This document shows positions 6,542 to 28,040 of a DNA stretch of 36,189 nucleotides, in pieces. Numbering within the stretch: position 1 is the stretch's first letter; each line of letters opens with the position of its first letter. Location: positions 1-36,189 of the forward strand of contig JAOAGA010000008.1 in NCBI GenBank assembly GCA_026415985.1, in the 5' to 3' direction. This DNA is from Pseudomonadota bacterium (GTDB lineage Bacteria > CALINM01). A program made the translations under genes and the position numbers. The notes below the pieces were generated by a model. It saw nothing but the letters and a program-made list of their open reading frames with translations. It was not told the origin of the DNA and searched no databases.

Positions 6542-9500
6542 ATGAAGAGAGAATCAGCAAAAGATTACCAATACTTTTTAAACGATATCCCTGTTAAAAG
6601 AGCGGTATGGGATAATACACATCTCTGGGAGATTGCAAAAGAGGAGGGGAGGTCCTTTTATCATCTCTTATATGACAGATTAAAATTTTTTACCACCCTT
6701 TCGGAAACGATTAACCCTAAATTTTTAATAGCCTTTTCAATATTAAACAGGACTTTCAGATATATAATAAAGACCTATTTCGAAGATAAGCAGAAATATT
6801 TAAATAAAAAAATTTTAGAAAACCCCCTTTATAAATCAATAGTAAGAAATTTTGTCTATTCCTACCCCCCTAAAATTTACAAAAAGGGTTTTAACTTCTC
6901 TCTTTTTTTAAAAAAGGAACCTTCTGAAAAATTAAAAAAGTCAATTTTCTATGAGATGGTATTACTAAAAATAATAGATGAAAATCCCGCGATTAGTGAA
7001 GGCAGAGAGATTTTTGTAGATGATGGCTTTATAAAAAATGAGCTCTATCTGAAAATTTTAAAAACAATTGAAAATGATAAAAAGGTATTGGGACCCTTAA
7101 AAAAATCCGGACTTTTTCTCTTTGATCTACTCAGAGAGCCAATCAGGCACTCCCCCAACTCAATTTACGGTCAGATTATCTATATAAAGGAAAGGTGGGG
7201 TTATCTGCTTCCGGAGGAGATTTTTCAAGATATAGTTATTTCTCTGGATATTATAAAAGAGTATGACCAGATCAAAATAGGAGGTAAGGGGGTACAGGAG
7301 GTTATATCTTTTAAAAAAGAGGAATTTTTCATAGAACCGGAAAGATTTAGTCCTGATACCCATTGGATGCCGGAGGTGGTTTTATTAGCAAAGCTCATAT
7401 ACGTATGGCTCTACCAGCTATCGAAAAAATACTCAAGGGAGATTAAAAGGCTCGATGAGATACCCGATGAGGAGTTAGATTTAATGAGGGAATGGGGTTT
7501 TAATGCCCTATGGCTGATAGGTATATGGGAAAGATCTCCTGCTTCAAAAAAGATTAAACACTTAATGGGAAATATATCCGCCCATTCGTCTGCATACTCC
7601 CTTTACGACTATGTTATTGCAGAGGATTTAGGAGGAGAAGAAGCATTTAATAATCTGAAAGAGCGAGCCTTTAAAAGAGGTATAAGATTGGCCAGTGATA
7701 TGGTTCCCAATCACACAGGGATTTACTCTAAGTGGGTTATTGAACATCCTGATTGGTTTATTCAAACAGACTATCCTCCCTTTCCTAAATACTCCTTTAC
7801 TAAAGCAAATCTTTCGGAAAATCCCGATATAGAGATTTATATAGAAGATGGCTATTATGACAGGACAGATGCAGGTGTGGTTTTTAAATACATAGATAAA
7901 AGAGATGGAAGGGTAAGGTATATTTATCACGGTAATGATGGTACCTCCACACCCTGGAATGATACCGCCCAGTTAAATTATCTCTTAAGGGAGGTAAGGG
8001 AAGCGGTTATTCAGACTATACTGTATGTGGCAAAAAAAACGCCAATTATAAGATTTGACGCAGCTATGACCCTTACCAAAAGGCACTTTCAAAGGCTATG
8101 GTTTCCTATGCCCGGTCAGGGGGGGGCTATTCCTTCAAGGGCGGAATTTTCTATGCCTAAAGAAGTTTTTGATGCGCTCATGCCTGATGAGTTTTGGAGA
8201 GAGGTTGTTGATCGGGTTTCAAGGGAGGCTCCGGATACCCTTCTTCTGGCAGAGGCCTTTTGGTTGTTAGAAGGTTATTTTGTAAGATCTTTAGGTATGC
8301 ATAGAGTTTATAACAGCGCCTTTATGAATATGTTAAAGAATGAAGAAAATGGGAAATACAGGCAAATTATAAAAAATATACTCCATTTTAATCCAGAGAT
8401 ACTAAAAAGGTTTGTAAACTTTATGAGTAACCCCGACGAACAAACTGCTATCGAACAGTTTGGTACCGGTGATAAGTATCTGGGAGTTTGTATTTTATTA
8501 GTGACTATGCCCGGTCTGCCAATGTTTGCTCACGGTCAGGTAGAAGGGTTTAAAGAAAAATATGGTATGGAGTTTTATAAAGCCTTCTGGGATGAAGAAC
8601 CTAATGAAGGTCTTATTGAGCTACATAAAAGATTTATATTCCCGTTGATGAAAAAAAGGTATTTGTTCAGTGAGGCAGAAAATTTTTATCTTTTTGATTT
8701 TTTGACAGAACATGGTATCGATGAGGACGTCTTTGCCTACTCAAACTTCTGTGAGGGTGAAGGGGCTATTATCCTTTACAACAACAGATATAAGTCTACA
8801 AAAGGCTATATAAAGATCTCTTCAGAAAGGATGGTTAAAAATATAAATAAGGGACATGAATACTTAAAGAAAGATATCTTTTCGGCATTAAACTTAAAGT
8901 TGGGAGACAATGTTTACTATCTTTTTGAAAACTTCAGGAATAACAGTTTTTATCTCAGAAGCTCCCATGATATTTATAAAGAGGGGCTTTATTTTGAACT
9001 TAATGCCTACGAATCTGTCGTTCTTATCAACATAAAGGAGCTAATAGATACTGACGGAACTATTTCCAAAATCTATAGGATATTTAAAGATAAATTTTTC
9101 GATAATTTTGAACAGATATATCTTGAAAATAAAAATGAAGAAAAACTAAAAAAAATTAATGAACTTATGGAAATTAAATTAGGGGAGAGAGACAGAATCT
9201 TTGAGATATTATCAGAAATCATTCTCACTGATATTACAAAAACAGAAGATCTAAATAGTCTAAAGGAGAAAGTTGAAGAACTGGTAAGTTTTTTGGATTT
9301 AAATATCAATTATAGACTTATAAATCTTACTATCTCTGATCTATATCTTAGAAAATTCAATAAAAATATTCTCAGTTTCTTTAACGAAATCGGTGCCATA
9401 AAACTTTTAGAAAGGATGAATGAGAGCAATAAGTTATATCTATTAGCTTTTAATGAAATTTTAAATAATATAAATACCTTAGATAACAGGCAATTTTTAG

Positions 9501-9745
9501 ATCTCTTGTCTAAAAATGATATTACAGAAAGGTTTCTTATTTTTAATAACTTTCAGGGTCATACCTATTTTAATAAGGAAAGATTTGAAGAGCTTGTTTC
9601 TTCTCTCTTGCTATTAAATGAAAGTAAAGACTTTGATAAAGACAATGTAAAGTTTTTGATTAAGAGTGCTGAAGAAGCAGGTTATTGTTTTGATTTGTTT
9701 GTAAAAAAGCTTATCCCTGAGGAAAGAAAAGAAACGGAATCTTAA
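6542..9745 (+). CDS. large GH13 (alpha-amylase superfamily) protein with long N- and C-terminal extensions
   Basis: GH13 region I DMVPNHT, region II IIRFDAAMTL, region III LLAEAFW, region IV position SNPDEQT (non-canonical); TIM-barrel context WGFNALWLIGIWERSP. Confidence 0.82.
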   Translation: MKRESAKDYQYFLNDIPVKRAVWDNTHLWEIAKEEGRSFYHLLYDRLKFFTTLSETINPKFLIAFSILNRTFRYIIKTYFEDKQKYLNKKILENPLYKSIVRNFVYSYPPKIYKKGFNFSLFLKKEPSEKLKKSIFYEMVLLKIIDENPAISEGREIFVDDGFIKNELYLKILKTIENDKKVLGPLKKSGLFLFDLLREPIRHSPNSIYGQIIYIKERWGYLLPEEIFQDIVISLDIIKEYDQIKIGGKGVQEVISFKKEEFFIEPERFSPDTHWMPEVVLLAKLIYVWLYQLSKKYSREIKRLDEIPDEELDLMREWGFNALWLIGIWERSPASKKIKHLMGNISAHSSAYSLYDYVIAEDLGGEEAFNNLKERAFKRGIRLASDMVPNHTGIYSKWVIEHPDWFIQTDYPPFPKYSFTKANLSENPDIEIYIEDGYYDRTDAGVVFKYIDKRDGRVRYIYHGNDGTSTPWNDTAQLNYLLREVREAVIQTILYVAKKTPIIRFDAAMTLTKRHFQRLWFPMPGQGGAIPSRAEFSMPKEVFDALMPDEFWREVVDRVSREAPDTLLLAEAFWLLEGYFVRSLGMHRVYNSAFMNMLKNEENGKYRQIIKNILHFNPEILKRFVNFMSNPDEQTAIEQFGTGDKYLGVCILLVTMPGLPMFAHGQVEGFKEKYGMEFYKAFWDEEPNEGLIELHKRFIFPLMKKRYLFSEAENFYLFDFLTEHGIDEDVFAYSNFCEGEGAIILYNNRYKSTKGYIKISSERMVKNINKGHEYLKKDIFSALNLKLGDNVYYLFENFRNNSFYLRSSHDIYKEGLYFELNAYESVVLINIKELIDTDGTISKIYRIFKDKFFDNFEQIYLENKNEEKLKKINELMEIKLGERDRIFEILSEIILTDITKTEDLNSLKEKVEELVSFLDLNINYRLINLTISDLYLRKFNKNILSFFNEIGAIKLLERMNESNKLYLLAFNEILNNINTLDNRQFLDLLSKNDITERFLIFNNFQGHTYFNKERFEELVSSLLLLNESKDFDKDNVKFLIKSAEEAGYCFDLFVKKLIPEERKETES

Positions 9746-10988
9746 CACCGGTATCACCGGTCTCGCTCTTGGGCGGGAACTTAATTGATTTTACTAAACT
9801 TAATATCCTGTCTGTAAAATCCTGGTTTTTAATGGTACTTTCAACAATTTCCGCCTTAGTGACTACTCCTTCCTCCGATATGACAAAAAAAACCACTACC
9901 TTACCTTCCAGCTGAGGGTCTTTTTTTCTTGCATCGGTAAAAATAAACTCAAACCCCTTCTTATATCTTGCCATTACCGAAAGTATCTCATTTTCCGGTC
10001 TCTTCCCCTTTAATATTCTTATCTCCGATTCTTTCTGAACATTGGCTTTTATACTTGCTCCTGCCGATAATTCTACCTTAACTTCCTTTTTTTCAGGACC
10101 TTTATATATACTTTCAGCTTTAACGGATTCATATTTTTCTGTATCTTCACCATCTAATTTTTTTGCCCTTTCTGATGTTTCTCCTGTACCCTTAACAGGA
10201 AGGGCATCTAGGGTTTCGTCAATTTTACTAAAAAGGCTTTTTTCTTTCTGTATGACTACCGTTTTAGCCCCTTCTCTGACTCCGAGAACACCTTCCTTGA
10301 CAACCGCCTGTCCTTCAAAAAACGTTCCTCCTGACTGTTTAAAAGGTTCTTTTGCTGTTTGTATTAACCTTTCACCTCTTTTTTCGGTTATCTTTTCTTT
10401 AGTTTCACCTTCCCTGGTTTTTTCATCTTTTTTATCAGGAAGATCCTTTTCCAGTTTTTTGTAATCTATCTCAATTTCTTTATCTTTTTCATCAAACTTT
10501 GCTACCTTTTCCAATGGTTTAATATTTAATGTGGCATAGATAAAAAATGTTAATAAAAGAACGGATAAAGATAAAAAAAGTGACAGAAAAGGTATATTTT
10601 CTCTTGTTATGTAGCTTTTCCTGAACTTGTTGATGGAATCTGATTTTTCTTCTTTAAACTCACTTGCTTTAAAGAATATCCTTTTCTCATCAAGGGAGAT
10701 CTCACAGACAATGTTTTTACTGAGTTCTAAATATCTTTTATTGGCAAAAATATCTTTAATTTCCCCGATGTCAAGAATCCTGTTATTGTGATGAATTTTT
10801 AAGTTTAAGCCATCAATAAGATTAATTTTAAGATAACCCTCTTTATTTTCTGCAATATTTAAAGATTTTTTTAAAGAATGGCTGTAAATAGAGCTTTTGT
10901 AATCACTACCAATGGTTAAAACCGGACTATTAATTTTTAAGTTTTTTTCTGCACCGCCTTCTATGATTTTTACAAGAAAACCTCTCAT
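9711..10988 (-). CDS. TonB-like / AgmX-PglI C-terminal domain protein with possible N-terminal FHA-like domain (GltG-like)
   Basis: Single TM (FLSLFLSLSVLLLTFFIYATL), charged periplasmic linker, C-terminus GKVVVFFVISEEGVVTKAEIVEST...LVKSIKFPP typical of TonB/AgmX; N-terminal ~80 aa beta-rich, FHA-like by eye. Confidence 0.7.
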   Translation of the reverse strand: MRGFLVKIIEGGAEKNLKINSPVLTIGSDYKSSIYSHSLKKSLNIAENKEGYLKINLIDGLNLKIHHNNRILDIGEIKDIFANKRYLELSKNIVCEISLDEKRIFFKASEFKEEKSDSINKFRKSYITRENIPFLSLFLSLSVLLLTFFIYATLNIKPLEKVAKFDEKDKEIEIDYKKLEKDLPDKKDEKTREGETKEKITEKRGERLIQTAKEPFKQSGGTFFEGQAVVKEGVLGVREGAKTVVIQKEKSLFSKIDETLDALPVKGTGETSERAKKLDGEDTEKYESVKAESIYKGPEKKEVKVELSAGASIKANVQKESEIRILKGKRPENEILSVMARYKKGFEFIFTDARKKDPQLEGKVVVFFVISEEGVVTKAEIVESTIKNQDFTDRILSLVKSIKFPPKSETGDTGVKIPFLFFPQG

Positions 10989-11401
10989 TTTGGTAACACC
11001 GCCAGATAGGGTTTTGAAAAACCGGCCTGAACAGCTAATCGGATGTAGTTTCTGACCATATAGAAGGGGAGTTCCTTATCTGCCTGAATGACAAGATAGT
11101 TTTTGCCTTTTGATTTAATTGACCGGAGCTCTTTTAGTATAAAGCTATCGTCTCTTCCGGTATTTGAGTAAATCTTACCATCAATATCAATCCTGTCTTT
11201 GCCAACAGCTATATAAAATTTTTCTGCTATAGGTATTGTGGTTTTTGCCTTCGGGAGTTCTATTCCTTCTACTAATTGCATCAAAACCCCTTCAAAACTA
11301 TAGGTTGTCAGAAAGAAGAAAAGGATTATAGTAAACATATCCATTAAACTTGTTAGGTTAAGTTCTATTGATGTCTCTTTTTTCTTAAAGAGCTTTGCCA
11401 T
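10985..11401 (-). CDS. ExbD/TolR-family proton channel subunit (canonical Asp)
   Basis: SIELNLTSLMDMFTIILFFFLTTYSFEG: TM helix with conserved Asp. Confidence 0.9.
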   Translation of the reverse strand: MAKLFKKKETSIELNLTSLMDMFTIILFFFLTTYSFEGVLMQLVEGIELPKAKTTIPIAEKFYIAVGKDRIDIDGKIYSNTGRDDSFILKELRSIKSKGKNYLVIQADKELPFYMVRNYIRLAVQAGFSKPYLAVLPK

Positions 11402-11856
11402 TATTTAACCTCATCGTAAAAAACTATATTAGGAAAAAGCTTCCCTTCACTCTTTGCAATATCCATAACTGAGACAACTTTTTCATATTGAACAGCAGGA
11501 TCAACCTTAATCATCAGATCCTGTTTCTGAGGAGCTAACCTTTTTATCTCCATAAGTTTTTCTTCCAAAACGGGTCCGTAATTATCTTTAAAATCTTTTT
11601 CAAGCTTTTTTTCGTCACCCCAGAAAAGGGTAAAACCATCCTTTTTTATCTCGATAATAATATCTTTTGAAGCTTCTGTTTTCTGAGCCACACCTTCCGA
11701 TATGCTTGGAAGCTGAAGCTCCATTGAGGCAATCTTTTGCAAAAAGGCATTTTGTATTACAAAGGGTAATATCAGTAGGAACAGATTCATTACCGGTATC
11801 AATATGGGCAAAAAGGCACCCTTTCTCTTCTCTTTTCTAAACCTTTTATAGAGCAT
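11401..11856 (-). CDS. ExbD/TolR-family protein, divergent (Asn at proton-carrier position)
   Basis: KGAFLPILIPVMNLFLLILPFVIQNAFLQKIASMELQLP: TolR-like TM plus periplasmic domain; adjacent to the canonical exbD. Confidence 0.8.
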   Translation of the reverse strand: MLYKRFRKEKRKGAFLPILIPVMNLFLLILPFVIQNAFLQKIASMELQLPSISEGVAQKTEASKDIIIEIKKDGFTLFWGDEKKLEKDFKDNYGPVLEEKLMEIKRLAPQKQDLMIKVDPAVQYEKVVSVMDIAKSEGKLFPNIVFYDEVK

Positions 11857-12533
11857 TAATACCTCATGGTTATAAGATTGATGAATTTAAGAACATAATA
11901 CTCAGTCTCTTCCATTAACCTTTCTGCCCTTGCATTAAGAATTGTATACATAAAAAGTATAATTACCGCTACAAATAACCCGTAAGCAGTGGTGTTCATT
12001 GCAACAGATATTCCCTGTGCGAGAAATTGAGCCTTCTGAGAAGGATCTACATTTGAAAGAGAGGAAAAGGCCTGAATTAAGCCTTGTAACGTTCCTAAAA
12101 GACCGAGGAGAGTTGATAAGTTAGCAACTGTAGGAAGAAAACTTAACCTTCTCTCAATCTTCGGAAACTCAAGGGCGGCAATCTCTTCAATTGTTTTTTC
12201 TATGACTACAGAAGCCCTCCGCTCACCCTTAAAAAGTTTAACTTCACAGGCTTTGGGATCTTCGCTCATCTGGCATCTCTTGACAACATCAATACCAAAC
12301 TTACATATATTTGATAGAGGAACATCGGGTGAGTTTTTTGAGATATCATCTAACTCTTTGTTTAATATCTTTTGCTCAACAAAATTAAAGTATTTATTTG
12401 CATCTAAATTAAATTTCTTGAAAAGAACAAAAAACCTTTCCACAACGACTGCTATTCCAAAGGCAAAGATTAATGTGATGGGGTACATAAAAAAACCACC
12501 ATCTTTAAAAAACCTACCTATAAAATCAATCAT
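11856..12533 (-). CDS. MotA/TolQ/ExbB-family proton channel protein
   Basis: FLPTVANLSTLLGLLGTLQGLIQAFSSLS and ISVAMNTTAYGLFVAVIILFMYTILN. Confidence 0.93.
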   Translation of the reverse strand: MIDFIGRFFKDGGFFMYPITLIFAFGIAVVVERFFVLFKKFNLDANKYFNFVEQKILNKELDDISKNSPDVPLSNICKFGIDVVKRCQMSEDPKACEVKLFKGERRASVVIEKTIEEIAALEFPKIERRLSFLPTVANLSTLLGLLGTLQGLIQAFSSLSNVDPSQKAQFLAQGISVAMNTTAYGLFVAVIILFMYTILNARAERLMEETEYYVLKFINLITMRY

Positions 12534-12563
12534 TTTTGTAATCCTCCTTTATAAAACTGAAAA

Positions 12564-12833
12564 TTATTTAATTTTAGCATCTTCTATAGTAACTTCAATG
12601 TAATTTTCAATATCCTTTTCCATAAGGTTATCTTTAAGGATAAATTTCATATCTATATCTTTTTTTTCCAGAGGTAGCTTAAGTTCGGGTATAAAAAAAA
12701 TAACCCTTGGTCTCTCTTCCGTTCCTATGATTTCAAAACCTCTTTTAATATCAAAATCGTAGATTATTTCTTCCGAGTAAGATATCGTATTGATTAATAT
12801 ACTAATTATTAAGCCACTTAATAACCTCTTCAT
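12564..12833 (-). CDS. small secreted/periplasmic hypothetical protein
   Basis: Signal-peptide-like MKRLLSGLIISILINTISYSEE; overlaps the upstream gene in the operon by 32 nt. Confidence 0.65.
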   Translation of the reverse strand: MKRLLSGLIISILINTISYSEEIIYDFDIKRGFEIIGTEERPRVIFFIPELKLPLEKKDIDMKFILKDNLMEKDIENYIEVTIEDAKIK

Positions 12834-13764
12834 CCTTTACCTCTTTGAGATATTTCTCGTAATAATTCTTTGCCTTTTCTCTGTCATCAAGATATAAATC
12901 ATATATCAAGCCTAAATTTCTATAAAAACTACCCTTTCTCTCAGTCAAAGGTACACTTTCAAGAAGTTCTAATGCCTTCTTTATATCTCCTCTGTTTATA
13001 AAAACCAGAGAAATAACTGGAATTGTTTTCTCGTTTAGTTGAAGCCTGTTTTCTTCATAATATTTTAATAGTTCATCATATCTGTTCAAATAAAAAAGGC
13101 AATAAAGGGTATATATTTTGGCGTCAGCATATTCTTTAACCACCCTGAACCTTTCTATGGCCCTCTCATAACTGCCTTCAGTAAACAATATCTTGCCCTG
13201 AAGATAATTTTTTTTCTCATAATCTTCTATCTCTCCAATTATGGAAAGTGCCAATGCTGATTGATTTCTTTTCTGGTATAGCAGGGCTAAGTAAATATTC
13301 AGCAAATCATTTTTGTAACCACTATCATATAAAGAAGTTAATATTCTCCTTGAAGCCTCAAAAACTGACTTTTCGTAATAGGCAATTCCTAATATGAGGT
13401 TAATCTCTTTATCCTCTAAATTTGGTATCTTTGAGAGCTTCTCTTCTCCAATTTTTAAAATATCGTCAAATCTTTTTTCTGAAAGAAGAGATAATACAAC
13501 CGGTTTAAGCAACTCAATGCTTACGAACTCATCTTTTCTTTTTTCGTAAAGCTCTATAATATCTTTATATTTACCGTTAGTCTTTTTTTCCCTTATTATT
13601 TCAATAAGGTTTTTTTCTTCGGTAATAACAGGCTTTGTAATCTCTTTATCAATTTTTACAATAGCCTGTTTCTCCTTTGTGGCACAACCGTACAGTGCTG
13701 TCAAAAGCATGGTTATAAACAAAAAATTAATTAGCCCTTTTCCTTTATTTGATGAGATTTTCAT
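12802..13764 (-). CDS. TPR-repeat lipoprotein (GltE-like candidate)
   Basis: Lipobox-like LLTALYGC followed by helical TPR-like repeats (ALALSIIGEIEDYEKKNYLQGKILFTEGSYERAIERF; GLIYDLYLDDREKAKNYYEKYL). Confidence 0.8.
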   Translation of the reverse strand: MKISSNKGKGLINFLFITMLLTALYGCATKEKQAIVKIDKEITKPVITEEKNLIEIIREKKTNGKYKDIIELYEKRKDEFVSIELLKPVVLSLLSEKRFDDILKIGEEKLSKIPNLEDKEINLILGIAYYEKSVFEASRRILTSLYDSGYKNDLLNIYLALLYQKRNQSALALSIIGEIEDYEKKNYLQGKILFTEGSYERAIERFRVVKEYADAKIYTLYCLFYLNRYDELLKYYEENRLQLNEKTIPVISLVFINRGDIKKALELLESVPLTERKGSFYRNLGLIYDLYLDDREKAKNYYEKYLKEVKDEEVIKWLNN

Positions 13765-16700
13765 AGTTAATTATGCTCTCAAAGTTAACGTCTAATTTGT
13801 CTATCTTTAACTTTCTTCCATATTTTTCAGGGTCTATCTCTCTAAGTTTAGTCAAAGATTTTAATACCAAATCTTTGTTACCCTTTTCAACAGAGTTTTT
13901 AACAGCTCGTTTTAAAAGAGCAACAGCTCTCAGCTTAGCCTCTTCCTGCTGGAGAAAAAACAGTGAAAACTCGTTAATAATATCCCCTAACTTATATAGA
14001 TATAGATCATCCCCCGTCTCTTTAAACTTCTTCGATAGATAGCCAACATATAGTTCAAGGGCTTCTCTCGCTTCGTCTTCCGGCTTGGTAAAAACAACCT
14101 TTGCGAGAACATTATGTAAGGGCTCCTCTGTTTCTGTTCCGAATCTATCTAAAATATCTGCCTTCAACCCCGCTATCAATAAATCATAGGCCTTATCAAA
14201 GTTGTTCTTGTAATAATATAAAAGTCCTTTTACAAAATCCTTTTCTTTCTTTTCCCTTTCCGTTAGTCTTTTACTTTCCAATTGATATAAGACCCTTTCT
14301 GAATCGTCATAATTTTTACCCTTAAGAAAGAGATAGGAAGATTCTATCAGATAAAAAATCTCTTTTTCCTTTGATAGGGAGGCATAATCAAGGGCTGCCT
14401 GTGCCGACTCTATAAACATACCCTTTTGTTTTCCAAAATTATAAATAAAATCCTTTGCCTTTATCCTGAGATCGTCCTTTTGTTTAATTTTGCTCATGTA
14501 TTTGACTGCTTCTTCAGTTTTGCCATCTCTCTGAAGTAAAAGCGAGAGGTTATAAATGGCAAACTCTGTAAACTCACTGCTTTTGTCATTTATAATTTCA
14601 TTATATGTATTTATGGCGAAATCCCTTTTTCCCTCACCCTCTAACAGTATCGCATGTTTAAATAATGAAAAATGTTTTAGTTTAAGATATTTATCATCAT
14701 TGAAGTTTTTATATCCTTTGTCAAACAGTTTGGAGATAAATAATTTATTCTCGATCCCGTCAAAGTTTGCCTCAACAAATTCTAAAGCACGTTTAAGCCC
14801 GGAATCATTAGAGCCGGCAACTTCTAAAGCAAAAAACATTTTTTCTGTCAGACCTTCTTTAAGAGATATATCTGCAAGAACAAGGGCAGAATCATTCAGA
14901 TATTTAGATTTTTTAAAATTAATTAAAAAATCTTCCAGAGAGTTTATCAGTTCTCTTGATAATATTTCGTGTCTTTTCCACATCTTATATTCACAGAAGA
15001 GGCTTCTGTAGTAACTTTCCTCTTCGTTAAACTTAAGCCTTCTTGCCTCTCTGAAGTACTTAACCGCTCTTTTGTTATCGTTTTTATCTTCATAAAGTTG
15101 TGCAAGCATAAAAGCTACTTCTCCTGCCCTTTTGTGAGAAGGAAAATAATCAAGCAGGCTTTCGTAGAGTTGAGTAGCTAAAAGGTAGTGGTCATCTTTT
15201 TTTTCCTTATCGTAAAGATTATTATAATAAAAGGCTGTCATTATAATCTCATCGCCAAAATCAGGTGGAAACTCTCTATATTTTTTATAATATTCAGAAT
15301 TCTTATCATATTTTTGTATATATCGCACCCTTTCTTTATAGGCCTGTTCCTGTTTACCCATAAAATTATAGGCATCTATTATAGAAAGGGCGATTTCATG
15401 GGAGTTTTTAAAGAGATAGTATCTATCCAAACCCTTTTTGTAAACAGATATGGCTTTCTCATAATCTGCTAAGTAAAGATACAGGTCTCCTAAATATTTA
15501 AACACTTTGTCTGGGTAAGGAAATTGCCTGTTTTTGTCAAGATAGTTCTCCACCAGATCTAAATTATCTATTTTATAAAAGGCCCTCGACAGTAGATCTA
15601 TCATCTCGTTAAGCAAGAGCTCCTGTCTTTGGCCTAAACTTTCAAATTTATAGTTCAAAAAGAGATTTATAACCTTATCGTATTGGCCTGAAAGATAGTA
15701 GCTCCATCCGATTTTATAATAGGCACTGTCTTTATAAACCTTTGCGGATGCACCTGCCTTTTCATAAAAACTAATAGCCCTCTGATAATCCTTTTTCTCA
15801 AAAAGAAGTTCAGCAATTTTCATATAGACCCTGAAATCACCCTCTTTTTTCTCGTTAAGATAGTCAAAGAATGTCTTTAATGCCTTTTCATATTCACCTA
15901 ACTCTTCATAGGTTTCTGCTAAAAAAAGTGTTACTTCAGCCTTTCTCTCTTTAAACTTTCCAAGATACTTCTTCGCAAGTTCTGTTGCGTTATTCATCAG
16001 TATTGTTCTTTCTTCATTGTTTTCCTTTGATGACATATATAGAAGTTCGTTAATAAGATAAATCTGATAATAAAGGATATTCTCATCAAAACTAAGATTT
16101 TTGTTTTCCAGTTCTGAGTCAAGCTTTTTTAGGGCTGTTAATAAGTTTATTATGTCTTCTGCAGTAAGGTTTTTGTTTTCCAGGATTATTTTTTCTATCT
16201 TTCTTGCGTAAATTTCTATATTTATCCTTTCTAACTCAACATTATATTTTTCTGTAATGTTTTTAAATAGCTTATCTATCTCTCTTTTCTCTTTCTCATA
16301 GGCTTCCTGAAAGAATGATAGCTCGCGGTAATCTTTATCTATGGTTTTTCTGAACTTTTTTATTCTGTTATAGGTCTCGTTAATTGAGACGATCTTTTGC
16401 TGAAGGTCTTTAAGTTTCGGGTCTTCCTTATAGGTTTCATAAACCTTATCAAAGTAAGTATTTACGGAGGAAAGCCCCTTTTCAACGTTTTTTAATTTTT
16501 CCTGAAATACTTTAATTTCATCAAGATAGAGATTTAAATGGTAGGCATAGTTTTTCATCTGCCATTTTATTCTGAAAATATCAGCTTGTTCCTTTAAATT
16601 TTTGTCTTCCAATGTATCTACCAATCTTAAGCTTCTGAGAATTGTAAACTCATCGGAAAGATTATTTGAAAAATCAGCTGGTTTCTCAAAATCGGGTATA

Positions 16701-17449
16701 TTGTAATTGCCCTTAGCTGTCATTGCATCAATTAGCAGAAGTTTTTCTTTATATCCCAATCTTTTATTAGATAAGAGTTCAATAACTTTGTCATATTTTT
16801 TAAGGTAATATGAGGCGACAGCCATAAGGTAATCTCTGTCCTCTATTTCTTGTTTTTCTAAAAACTCCAAAGCGTCGGAAAAATTTTTATTTTTAAAAAG
16901 AATTAATGTATAAACTCTTGGAAAGGTATCTTTATAAGATGTTATTAGCTCGAGAGCCCTTTTATACTGTTCTTCACCATAAGCAAGTACTATCTCTTTC
17001 AAATCGTTAAAGAGAGGTTTTTTTGATTTATATTCTTTTAGCTTTCCAGCTTTGAAGTGATATAAAAAGTTAATATCTTCAAAGTCTGAACTTGACAACA
17101 GGGAACCAAAATTTTTATAAAAAATTTCAAGATCTTTTGAATCTTTCGTGTCAGAGAGGATATTGTATAGTATCTTTTTTCTGGTTGTAAGGTCTTCTTT
17201 TTCAATAAGATTTTTAATAAGAGATATAGTAAAGTTATCTCTATAGGCCCTGTAAATTGCTAAAGTTGTTGTGTCTTTTTCATAAGACGAGCCCTTAAAA
17301 CTTGCAGGCAGATCCAAATCTAATACCAGATATTGGGAGATATCTTTCCATCCTGCAGATTTCACATTAATTTTTTCAACTGTCTGAGGATAAGAAAGAG
17401 TAACCCAAAAAAGAGAGAACAGAATAATAACGCTTAGTCTATAAGCCAT
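13745..17449 (-). CDS. large secreted TPR-repeat protein (1234 aa)
   Basis: Signal peptide LSVIILFSLFWVTLSYPQ; numerous TPR-like units (ETYEELGEYEKALKTFFDYL; KIAELLFEKKDYQRAISFYEKA; FKYLGDLYLYLADYEKAISVYKKGL). Confidence 0.88.
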   Translation of the reverse strand: MAYRLSVIILFSLFWVTLSYPQTVEKINVKSAGWKDISQYLVLDLDLPASFKGSSYEKDTTTLAIYRAYRDNFTISLIKNLIEKEDLTTRKKILYNILSDTKDSKDLEIFYKNFGSLLSSSDFEDINFLYHFKAGKLKEYKSKKPLFNDLKEIVLAYGEEQYKRALELITSYKDTFPRVYTLILFKNKNFSDALEFLEKQEIEDRDYLMAVASYYLKKYDKVIELLSNKRLGYKEKLLLIDAMTAKGNYNIPDFEKPADFSNNLSDEFTILRSLRLVDTLEDKNLKEQADIFRIKWQMKNYAYHLNLYLDEIKVFQEKLKNVEKGLSSVNTYFDKVYETYKEDPKLKDLQQKIVSINETYNRIKKFRKTIDKDYRELSFFQEAYEKEKREIDKLFKNITEKYNVELERINIEIYARKIEKIILENKNLTAEDIINLLTALKKLDSELENKNLSFDENILYYQIYLINELLYMSSKENNEERTILMNNATELAKKYLGKFKERKAEVTLFLAETYEELGEYEKALKTFFDYLNEKKEGDFRVYMKIAELLFEKKDYQRAISFYEKAGASAKVYKDSAYYKIGWSYYLSGQYDKVINLFLNYKFESLGQRQELLLNEMIDLLSRAFYKIDNLDLVENYLDKNRQFPYPDKVFKYLGDLYLYLADYEKAISVYKKGLDRYYLFKNSHEIALSIIDAYNFMGKQEQAYKERVRYIQKYDKNSEYYKKYREFPPDFGDEIIMTAFYYNNLYDKEKKDDHYLLATQLYESLLDYFPSHKRAGEVAFMLAQLYEDKNDNKRAVKYFREARRLKFNEEESYYRSLFCEYKMWKRHEILSRELINSLEDFLINFKKSKYLNDSALVLADISLKEGLTEKMFFALEVAGSNDSGLKRALEFVEANFDGIENKLFISKLFDKGYKNFNDDKYLKLKHFSLFKHAILLEGEGKRDFAINTYNEIINDKSSEFTEFAIYNLSLLLQRDGKTEEAVKYMSKIKQKDDLRIKAKDFIYNFGKQKGMFIESAQAALDYASLSKEKEIFYLIESSYLFLKGKNYDDSERVLYQLESKRLTEREKKEKDFVKGLLYYYKNNFDKAYDLLIAGLKADILDRFGTETEEPLHNVLAKVVFTKPEDEAREALELYVGYLSKKFKETGDDLYLYKLGDIINEFSLFFLQQEEAKLRAVALLKRAVKNSVEKGNKDLVLKSLTKLREIDPEKYGRKLKIDKLDVNFESIINYENLIK

Positions 17450-17889
17450 GCGTTTGGTACCACTCTTAACTTCTCGAAGCTGTCTGAAAAGAGAAACTCT
17501 ACCGCAACTCTTCTGTATTCGGGAACATCAAACTGAAACTTCTTGGAAATTTCACGATTGTCTTTAAACATCCTTATTGTAACAGTGTTAGCACCGGTTC
17601 TTACAGGGAAATCCCCGATGAATTGTGTTTTAAGTTTATCTTCCTTAATCTGAAAATCTCCCGTTCTTATGAGATTATCATTAAGGTATAGACCATAAAA
17701 GACATTATTAAACTTTTTGCTATCATAACTGAAGAATATGGTCACCTTGCTCTTTGTAAAAAAGGGGATTTCTCTTTCTAATTTTCCTATTTCTCTGCCT
17801 AAGTTTATTAGCTCTTCCAGTGGCTCAGCAATTGCAGAGGTAGTAAAAAGTGCACAGAAAACAACAAATATTGTTAATGTTTTTTTCAT
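17434..17889 (-). CDS. secreted hypothetical protein, first gene of envelope operon
   Basis: Signal peptide MKKTLTIFVVFCALFTTSAIAEP; good promoter directly upstream; 16-nt overlap with the TPR gene. Confidence 0.75.
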   Translation of the reverse strand: MKKTLTIFVVFCALFTTSAIAEPLEELINLGREIGKLEREIPFFTKSKVTIFFSYDSKKFNNVFYGLYLNDNLIRTGDFQIKEDKLKTQFIGDFPVRTGANTVTIRMFKDNREISKKFQFDVPEYRRVAVEFLFSDSFEKLRVVPNAWLID

Positions 17890-17891
17890 AG

Positions 17892-17927
17892 TGTAGATAT
17901 TATAGAAAACAAATTATTAAAATTCAA
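17892..17927 (-). promoter_or_regulatory. sigma-70-type promoter of envelope operon, TTGAAT-N17-TATAAT
   Basis: Minus-strand sequence TTGAATTTTAATAATTTGTTTTCTATAATATCTACACTATG; -35 at 17927-17922, -10 at 17904-17899. Confidence 0.65.
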
Positions 17928-18059
17928 TAATATTAACAAATTTCTACCCTTTTCCTTAATAATTGAAAAGAAGGCTTAAATCGTGACAATATCTGAAAGA
18001 TTTTTTTGGAGTTAAAAGTTGTCTCCGAGATTTTTTTAATATTTATATCCATTTTTTGT

Positions 18060-27158: not shown

Positions 27159-28040
27159 TTGATTGAAAGAAGAATAGATAGAAGAATACCTTTCAGAACT
27201 AAGGTAATCGTTGAGGCAGATGGTATAAGGAGAGAATTCTATACCATCAACATAAGCAGGGGTGGTGTATATATTGAAACGGATAACCCGCTTACAATAA
27301 ACAGCATTATATCTTTGGAGATTGCCATTGATGAAAACACCAAGATAGACTTGCAGGGCAAGGTTGTTTGGGTATCCTATCCCCATAGGGACAGTAACTA
27401 TCTTCCCGGGATGGGAGTTAAGTTTATGGATATATCGGCAGAAAAAATGGAGATTCTCGGGAATTTTATCGGTGATTATATCAAGAAAAATATGGAGATA
27501 ATAGATTACACGGAATACTCTCTTGATGACAGAATAGTTTTAACTGATGAGAATATCTATGAACAAAATGCGGAACTACTCATTGCCTTTGCCGGTTTGG
27601 GGATAAAGGAGCTTATTAACCATACAAAGTATGTCCTTGACAATGGCGGGGAACAGTTAAGGTTAGAATATGAAAAAAGAGGAGATCTTTTGCCCTTTGA
27701 GGGGTCCTTTCAGGTAACCGCTGGTGGAAATTTAATGGCGAAGTATGTGTTGTTTACCGCTATTCCGAATTTTTATGACAGCTATGGTGAGGAGCTATTA
27801 AGGATATCAATGCTGGAGGTTCTTAATAGGGCTTCTTTGCATTGCTTTAGCTCTGTTTTTTATCCTGCCTTTTCTCTTTTGGAAGCGGGTTTTCCCATAA
27901 ATGTTTCTGCTAAGGTTTTGCTTGGCACAACATATGGTTTTTTAAAGAAAGAGAAATTTCCGGTTAAGGTAATCTTTTTCTGTAACAATCAGGATTTAAT
28001 GGTCTTTCAAAAGATTAAAAGGGAGATTTTTGAGAGTTGA
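27159..28040 (+). CDS. PilZ domain protein with C-terminal macro-like domain
   Basis: N-term RRIDRRIPFRTKV...TINISRGGVYIET (PilZ RxxxR and (D/N)xSxxG); C-term GSFQVTAGGNLMAKYVLFTAIPNFYDSYGEELLRISMLEVLNRA...FYPAFSLLEAGFPINVSAKVLLGTTYGFLKKEKFPVKVIFFCNNQDLMVFQKI (macro-domain pattern). TTG start. Confidence 0.75.
   Translation: MIERRIDRRIPFRTKVIVEADGIRREFYTINISRGGVYIETDNPLTINSIISLEIAIDENTKIDLQGKVVWVSYPHRDSNYLPGMGVKFMDISAEKMEILGNFIGDYIKKNMEIIDYTEYSLDDRIVLTDENIYEQNAELLIAFAGLGIKELINHTKYVLDNGGEQLRLEYEKRGDLLPFEGSFQVTAGGNLMAKYVLFTAIPNFYDSYGEELLRISMLEVLNRASLHCFSSVFYPAFSLLEAGFPINVSAKVLLGTTYGFLKKEKFPVKVIFFCNNQDLMVFQKIKREIFES

Follow-up and report, generated by a model that had tools for sequence, protein, structure and literature searches.

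A probable Agl/Glt-type core complex operon with an unequal TolR pair in a deep-branching, barely sampled bacterium

Introduction

What kind of machine is built when a TolQ-type proton channel and two TolR paralogs share an operon with tetratricopeptide repeat (TPR) proteins and a transducer carrying a TonB-like tail? The question is raised by eight overlapping open reading frames (ORFs) at positions 9711-17889 on the minus strand of the window analysed here, the whole stretch of 36,189 nucleotides from contig JAOAGA010000008.1 of a Pseudomonadota bacterium (assembly GCA_026415985.1). The host is a deep-branching, barely sampled bacterium, whose assembly comprises 1.57 Mb and is 84% complete. 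Only two other genomes of its family entered the comparison, and beyond those the nearest relation is "same domain" only. A sequence-only reading of this DNA had proposed that the operon is a reduced or ancestral relative of the Agl/Glt machinery of Myxococcus xanthus. We estimate at roughly 70% the probability that it is an Agl/Glt-type core complex operon, whose products form a force transducer that spans the envelope, is driven by protons and has a surface glycan as its likeliest load. On this reading it is a compact form of the envelope machine, powered by protons, that is regarded as the ancestor of myxobacterial gliding motors, and belongs to an already described class, here as a GltC-less version in an isolated lineage.

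Results

The operon and its match to the Agl/Glt core complex

An ORF check of the window reproduced the coordinates, strand and lengths of all eight genes and, with the domain searches, bore out the operon and its parts as first described. The junctions are translationally coupled, with TAATG at 11856 and 11401, ATGA at 10988 and overlaps of 16-32 bp further upstream. Searches against Pfam and NCBIfam recovered a MotA_ExbB match, two ExbD matches, an AgmX/PglI tail and TPRs (Table 1), and returned no family match for the 151-aa and 89-aa secreted proteins. The relative SKW176 (G002; L018/L034) has all eight genes in identical order, and because they stand there amid different neighbours, the operon is a real, self-contained unit. 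The second relative (G001) carries contig-broken pieces of it.

A TolQ-profile scan of the named genomes yielded the best 80 loci, those nearest to the window TolQ, so that the proportions given here describe that neighbourhood of the family. Many of these loci share the order [secreted ~180 aa]-(GltC)-GltD-GltE-small secreted-TolQ-TolR-TolR-GltG. This core order is present in Gammaproteobacteria (Marinobacter, Microbulbifer, Woeseiaceae), Nitrospirota, Deferrisomatales, Fibrobacterota and related groups, and the core operon was also found in Fermentibacterota. It corresponds to the core complex (group B) that Luciano et al. 2011 described in Gamma- and Deltaproteobacteria and Fibrobacter, a seven-gene set of GltC, GltD, GltE and GltG with AglR, AglQ and AglS in which GltC is counted as a member (PMC3169522). 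The window likewise holds TolQ and two TolR paralogs within one operon, GltD- and GltE-type TPR proteins upstream of the motor, as judged by gene order and hhalign, and a GltG-like protein with an FHA-fold domain, a transmembrane segment and a TonB-type tail. As a separate observation, genes that by eye look ApbE-like and thioredoxin-like repeatedly lie immediately upstream of the core operon in Gammaproteobacteria and Nitrospirota (L038, L040, L047, L059, L066, L110), as if flavinylation or redox chemistry were linked to it.

Table 1. Features of the eight-gene operon and the intergenic stretch from which it starts
Feature	Position	Strand	Basis
Divergent intergenic stretch with candidate promoter	17890..18005		TTGAAT-17-TATAAT, minus strand 17927-17899; consensus scan only
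151-aa secreted protein, predicted beta-sandwich with N-terminal helix	17434..17889	-	Signal peptide by eye; AlphaFold pLDDT 84
1234-aa secreted TPR protein, GltD-like	13745..17449	-	TPR Pfam matches
320-aa TPR lipoprotein, GltE-like	12802..13764	-	Lipobox LYGC, from sequence
89-aa secreted protein, GltF position before TolQ	12564..12833	-	Motif E-I-x-G-xxx-RP-x-V-I-F-x-I-P
TolQ/AglR-like proton-channel subunit, 225 aa	11856..12533	-	MotA_ExbB (PF01618) 8.5e-27
TolR1, ExbD/TolR paralog, 151 aa	11401..11856	-	ExbD (PF02472) 1.1e-11; Asn replaces transmembrane Asp (PVMNLFLLILPF, PVMNLF); transmembrane Pro at +7
TolR2, ExbD/TolR paralog, 138 aa	10985..11401	-	ExbD (PF02472) 4.7e-14; transmembrane Asp kept (SLMDMFTIILFF, LMDMF); alignment
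GltG-like transducer, 425 aa	9711..10988	-	AgmX/PglI tail (NF033768) 5.4e-18; AlphaFold; Foldseek

The individual proteins agree with this assignment. The 1234-aa protein has a full-length counterpart in SKW176 (E 2.6e-137) and aligns with gammaproteobacterial and Nitrospirota GltD over 695 columns (hhalign 99.5%). The 320-aa lipoprotein matches core-complex GltE (hhalign 97%, E 1.8e-11), and both share the non-generic C-terminal motif NLGxxYDLYL; the NCBIfam GltE model NF033758 is absent among its matches at E<=1. The 151-aa protein that heads the operon is homologous to the ~180-aa protein encoded first in the core operons of Gammaproteobacteria and Nitrospirota (hhalign 64%, E 6.4e-5, 81 columns; multiple alignment), while comparison of its fold with the PDB gave generic beta-sandwich matches only, none of them informative. 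Of 241 genomes sampled from across the bacterial families, only 9 match the profile of this head-protein family, and the system is therefore widely scattered rather than common.

For the GltG-like protein, AlphaFold predicts an N-terminal domain of FHA fold (residues 1-110), one transmembrane helix (~129-155), a disordered linker (160-321) and the TonB-type AgmX/PglI tail (324-421). Foldseek matched the N-domain to FHA domains and the tail to the TonB C-terminal domain in the PDB, so the FHA-like N-terminus suspected in the sequence-only reading, which is invisible to Pfam, is supported by fold. Phosphothreonine-binding FHA residues are not evident in the sequence by eye, and the GltG/GltJ equivalog cut-offs are not reached (NF033760, 49.9 bits against 650; NF033761, 25.5 against 450).

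The 89-aa protein matches its equivalents (hhalign 94.6%, E 6.5e-8). A motif like I-x-G-xxx-KP-x-V-x-(Y/F)-x-x-P occurs in the ORF directly before TolQ in 45 of 84 loci, as against 2 of 84 on the antisense strand, and is present in nearly all groups, Bdellovibrionota excepted. GltF was listed by Luciano as confined to Myxococcales and Bdellovibrionales (PMC3169522). Position and motif suggest that the core may everywhere include a GltF-like protein, overlooked owing to its short length. To our eye the motif recalls TonB boxes; in published models, GltG grips outer-membrane-side TonB-box proteins (PMC5349195).

A TolR pair with a single aspartate

Canonical TolR and ExbD proteins carry an essential transmembrane Asp, two per motor. 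The window TolQ has TolQ as its best PDB match (1.1e-10) and carries the conserved transmembrane threonines T148, T181 and T182. Both ExbD/TolR paralogs named in the sequence-only reading proved genuine, but it had overlooked that one of them, TolR1, lacks the proton-binding Asp. Residues were counted in 84 distinct loci with both TolR genes, after removal of two duplicate loci. For TolR1, 46 loci have Asn at this position, 12 have Ser, 2 Ala, 1 Gly and 23 Asp, so that 61 of 84 are without Asp, whereas for TolR2, 83 loci have Asp and 1 has Asn. A Pro seven residues past this position marks 59 of the 61 Asp-less TolR1 proteins and is seen in none of the 23 Asp-type TolR1 proteins and none of the 84 TolR2 proteins. 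In the control loci, every ExbD/TolR protein belonging to another system has Asp wherever the transmembrane segment is readable. One locus of Bacteriovoracaceae (L070), counted among the 46, has Asn in both TolRs and may be a proton-site-free motor or a decaying copy.

Asp/Asp pairs are found mostly in Bdellovibrionota; the motors of G030, whose GC and gene content suggest a myxobacterium, and one motor of G045 are further cases. On a tree of TolQ and TolR2 the TolR1 Asp state requires five changes, whose direction is not readable, and kinship makes the counts non-independent; an independent-contrast test of Asp loss against the transmembrane Pro had 3-5 pairs of independent changes, too few for significance. 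No earlier report of an Asp-less TolR partner was found in the literature searched, which left out most subscription papers.

We tentatively propose, at somewhat less than even odds, that most Agl/Glt-type core motors, including that of the window, rely on an axle that is an obligate heterodimer and holds only one proton-binding Asp, in which TolR1 would be the proton-inert half with a Pro-kinked transmembrane helix. Current rotary models let two Asp alternate (PMC12215075). If our proposal is true, a single-Asp 5:2 motor could not alternate between two sites, as is assumed for ExbBD, TolQR and MotAB; its steps would be larger (72 degrees), or it would work as a ratchet. Gliding-type motors, with their Asp/Asp axle, would then represent a different state that may go with continuous motion. 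That one of two "essential" Asp residues has been lost naturally in many phyla, together with a linked Pro, offers a ready-made experiment on the turning of 5:2 proton motors, and the Asp-less TolR1 makes the assumed two-aspartate cycle testable.

Rather unlikely, and compatible with the core-complex assignment instead of exclusive of it, is that TolR1 stands outside the axle as an accessory or anchoring protein while TolR2 homodimers with two Asp form the motor. That TolR1 is without the essential residue and carries a transmembrane Pro speaks for this, as does the loss of conductance in M. xanthus AglQ D28N (PMC3858216). However, TolR1 is kept beside TolR2 in several phyla with a strongly conserved transmembrane segment, which suggests a place in the pore, and even for AglQ and AglS, both of which carry Asp, the published account allows either homo- or heterodimers (PMC9389320).

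Neighbouring genes

Upstream the operon is bounded by a divergent intergenic region and downstream by a convergent gene, and its neighbours in the window are unrelated housekeeping genes. Sites of the TTGAAT/TATAAT type are no commoner in 17890..18005 than in shuffled sequence. The convergent 1067-aa ORF (6542-9745, plus strand) looks by eye like a member of the alpha-amylase family (GH13) and overlaps the 3' end of the operon by 35 bp. Farther away, an ORF at 27159-28040 (plus strand) fuses a PilZ domain to a macro-domain-like region, an unusual pairing.

Discussion

A possible mechanism and its load

Reading the operon as an Agl/Glt-type core complex suggests how it may work. TolQ pentamers would enclose a TolR1-TolR2 axle, and protons would pass via the single Asp of TolR2. 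The motion would be handed to the GltG-like protein, whose flexible linker would cross the peptidoglycan, and its TonB-like tail would grip the GltD-like and GltE-like TPR proteins, assembled in the periplasm or at the outer membrane, possibly via the motif of the 89-aa protein. That assembly would then be pulled or carried along the cell surface. Most likely the machine uses protons to move a partner in the outer membrane or at the surface, linked to polysaccharide in some phyla.

A surface glycan or outer-membrane partner is our best guess for the load because the core operons of Fibrobacterota run straight into Wza, Wzc and glycosyltransferase-like genes, and the Agl-Nfs machine of M. xanthus moves a Wza-exported glycan (PMC3858216). 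The association with capsule-type export genes is reminiscent of Agl-Nfs and Exo in Myxococcus sporulation. Wartel 2013 found that Agl moves Nfs and spore-coat glycan, that this requires Asp28 of AglQ, and termed the core a basal transport machinery (PMC3858216). By this analogy a surface glycan appears the likeliest load. In four Fibrobacterota loci (L064, L076, L097, L101) a ~108-aa protein, STAS-like of the SpoIIAA type by eye, sits between the TolR1 and TolR2 genes.

Several points weigh against the core-complex assignment or parts of it. GltC was not found, as the GltC profile gave only short TPR-level matches in the three family genomes, with the host's own genome 84% complete. The hhalign E-values are single pairwise comparisons, and the homology of GltD and GltE, which are repeat proteins, is mostly that of TPR repeat to TPR repeat; for this reason synteny carries much of the weight. 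The 89-aa family has no similarity to the GltF-like proteins of Bacteriovoracaceae, of which it had been considered a homolog, so that its identification as GltF depends on where it lies and on the motif seen in other phyla. No Poly_export gene is present in the same 84% complete assembly and the operon's own neighbours are housekeeping genes, so the case for a glycan load is drawn from other phyla. Finally, on the TolQ and TolR2 tree the window lineage forms an isolated long branch of uncertain position with no supported neighbours. The proposed kinship with Agl/Glt stands on synteny over many loci, profile, fold and sequence homology; whether the operon is reduced or ancestral is not decided by the tree.

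Other readings of the operon

Could the operon be a true gliding motor, in which TolQ, TolR1 and TolR2 with GltD, GltE and GltG propel the cell under MglA control as in Myxococcus? An FHA-TonB transducer as in GltG would fit. The sequence-only reading saw no MglA in the window, which is correct, and the genome-wide search it had suggested found a homolog of 340 aa on contig C70 (L144 1057-2079), with a ~145-aa C-terminal extension and 63% identity to the MglA-like protein of the relatives. Both relatives additionally have a plain 196-aa MglA adjoining the gene of a 161-aa MglB-like protein. Yet an MglA homolog does not prove gliding, because MglA is widespread. The sampled gliding-type motors (Bdellovibrionota; G030, myxobacterium-like by inference) are Asp/Asp, whereas that of the window is Asn/Asp, and GltC was not found in the search above. 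Luciano 2011 also argues that the core alone is insufficient to power motility (PMC3169522). We consider gliding improbable.

A dedicated TonB-like energizer for outer-membrane receptors, with the TPR proteins as scaffolds, is more improbable still. The tail is of TonB type, with TonB C-terminal domains as its best fold match, and the genome has one TonB-dependent receptor and only two ExbB/TolQ genes in the assembly. However, neither a receptor nor a canonical TonB is linked to the operon: the receptor lies near a TonB gene of its own on contig C123, and SKW176 has a complete ExbB-TonB-receptor cluster besides the eight-gene operon. Ordinary Ton systems are not known to have GltD/E-type TPR proteins.

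A variant Tol-Pal system for outer-membrane constriction is very improbable, for although the window TolQ scores best against TolQ both among equivalogs and in the PDB, the scores fall far below the TolQ and TolR equivalog cut-offs, the operon's tolQR genes are not linked to TolA, TolB or Pal, and the genome has TolB-Pal-CpoB on contig C33 and a further TolQR with intact Asp on C73. The sequence-only reading had named a standard Tol-Pal or TonB identity, or linkage to pal/tolB, as what would tell against it; neither holds, and those systems lie elsewhere in the genome.

Comparison with known systems

The TPR-tolQ-two tolR-vWA clusters of the PVC group (PMC12204202) share with the window operon one TolQ, two heterologous TolRs and a TPR gene, but have a vWA transducer in place of the FHA/TonB tail. 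Tol-Pal and TonB-ExbB-ExbD belong to the same motor family and have a TonB-like C-terminal domain; the window operon differs from them in being without TolA/TolB/Pal or a receptor, and in having two unequal TolRs together with TPR and FHA parts. The Agl-Glt gliding and Agl-Nfs sporulation machines of M. xanthus likewise have one TolQ, two TolRs, GltD and GltE TPR proteins, a small secreted protein after GltE (89 aa here) and an FHA-TonB GltG. In contrast to them, the window operon is one continuous operon without GltA/B/C/H/I/J/K, and its first TolR is without the transmembrane Asp reported for both AglQ and AglS (PMC9389320). With the Agl/Glt core of Luciano 2011 it shares the order GltD-GltE-small secreted protein-TolQ-TolR-TolR-GltG, a homologous secreted protein as the first gene product and the TonB-type tail; it differs in being without GltC and in coming from an isolated lineage outside the 2011 groups. 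Its GltG-like protein also retains the FHA-fold N-domain, unlike the gammaproteobacterial GltGs aligned here. No function has been assigned to the core complex since its description in 2011, and the window operon extends its range to an isolated lineage and presents it in a GltC-less version.

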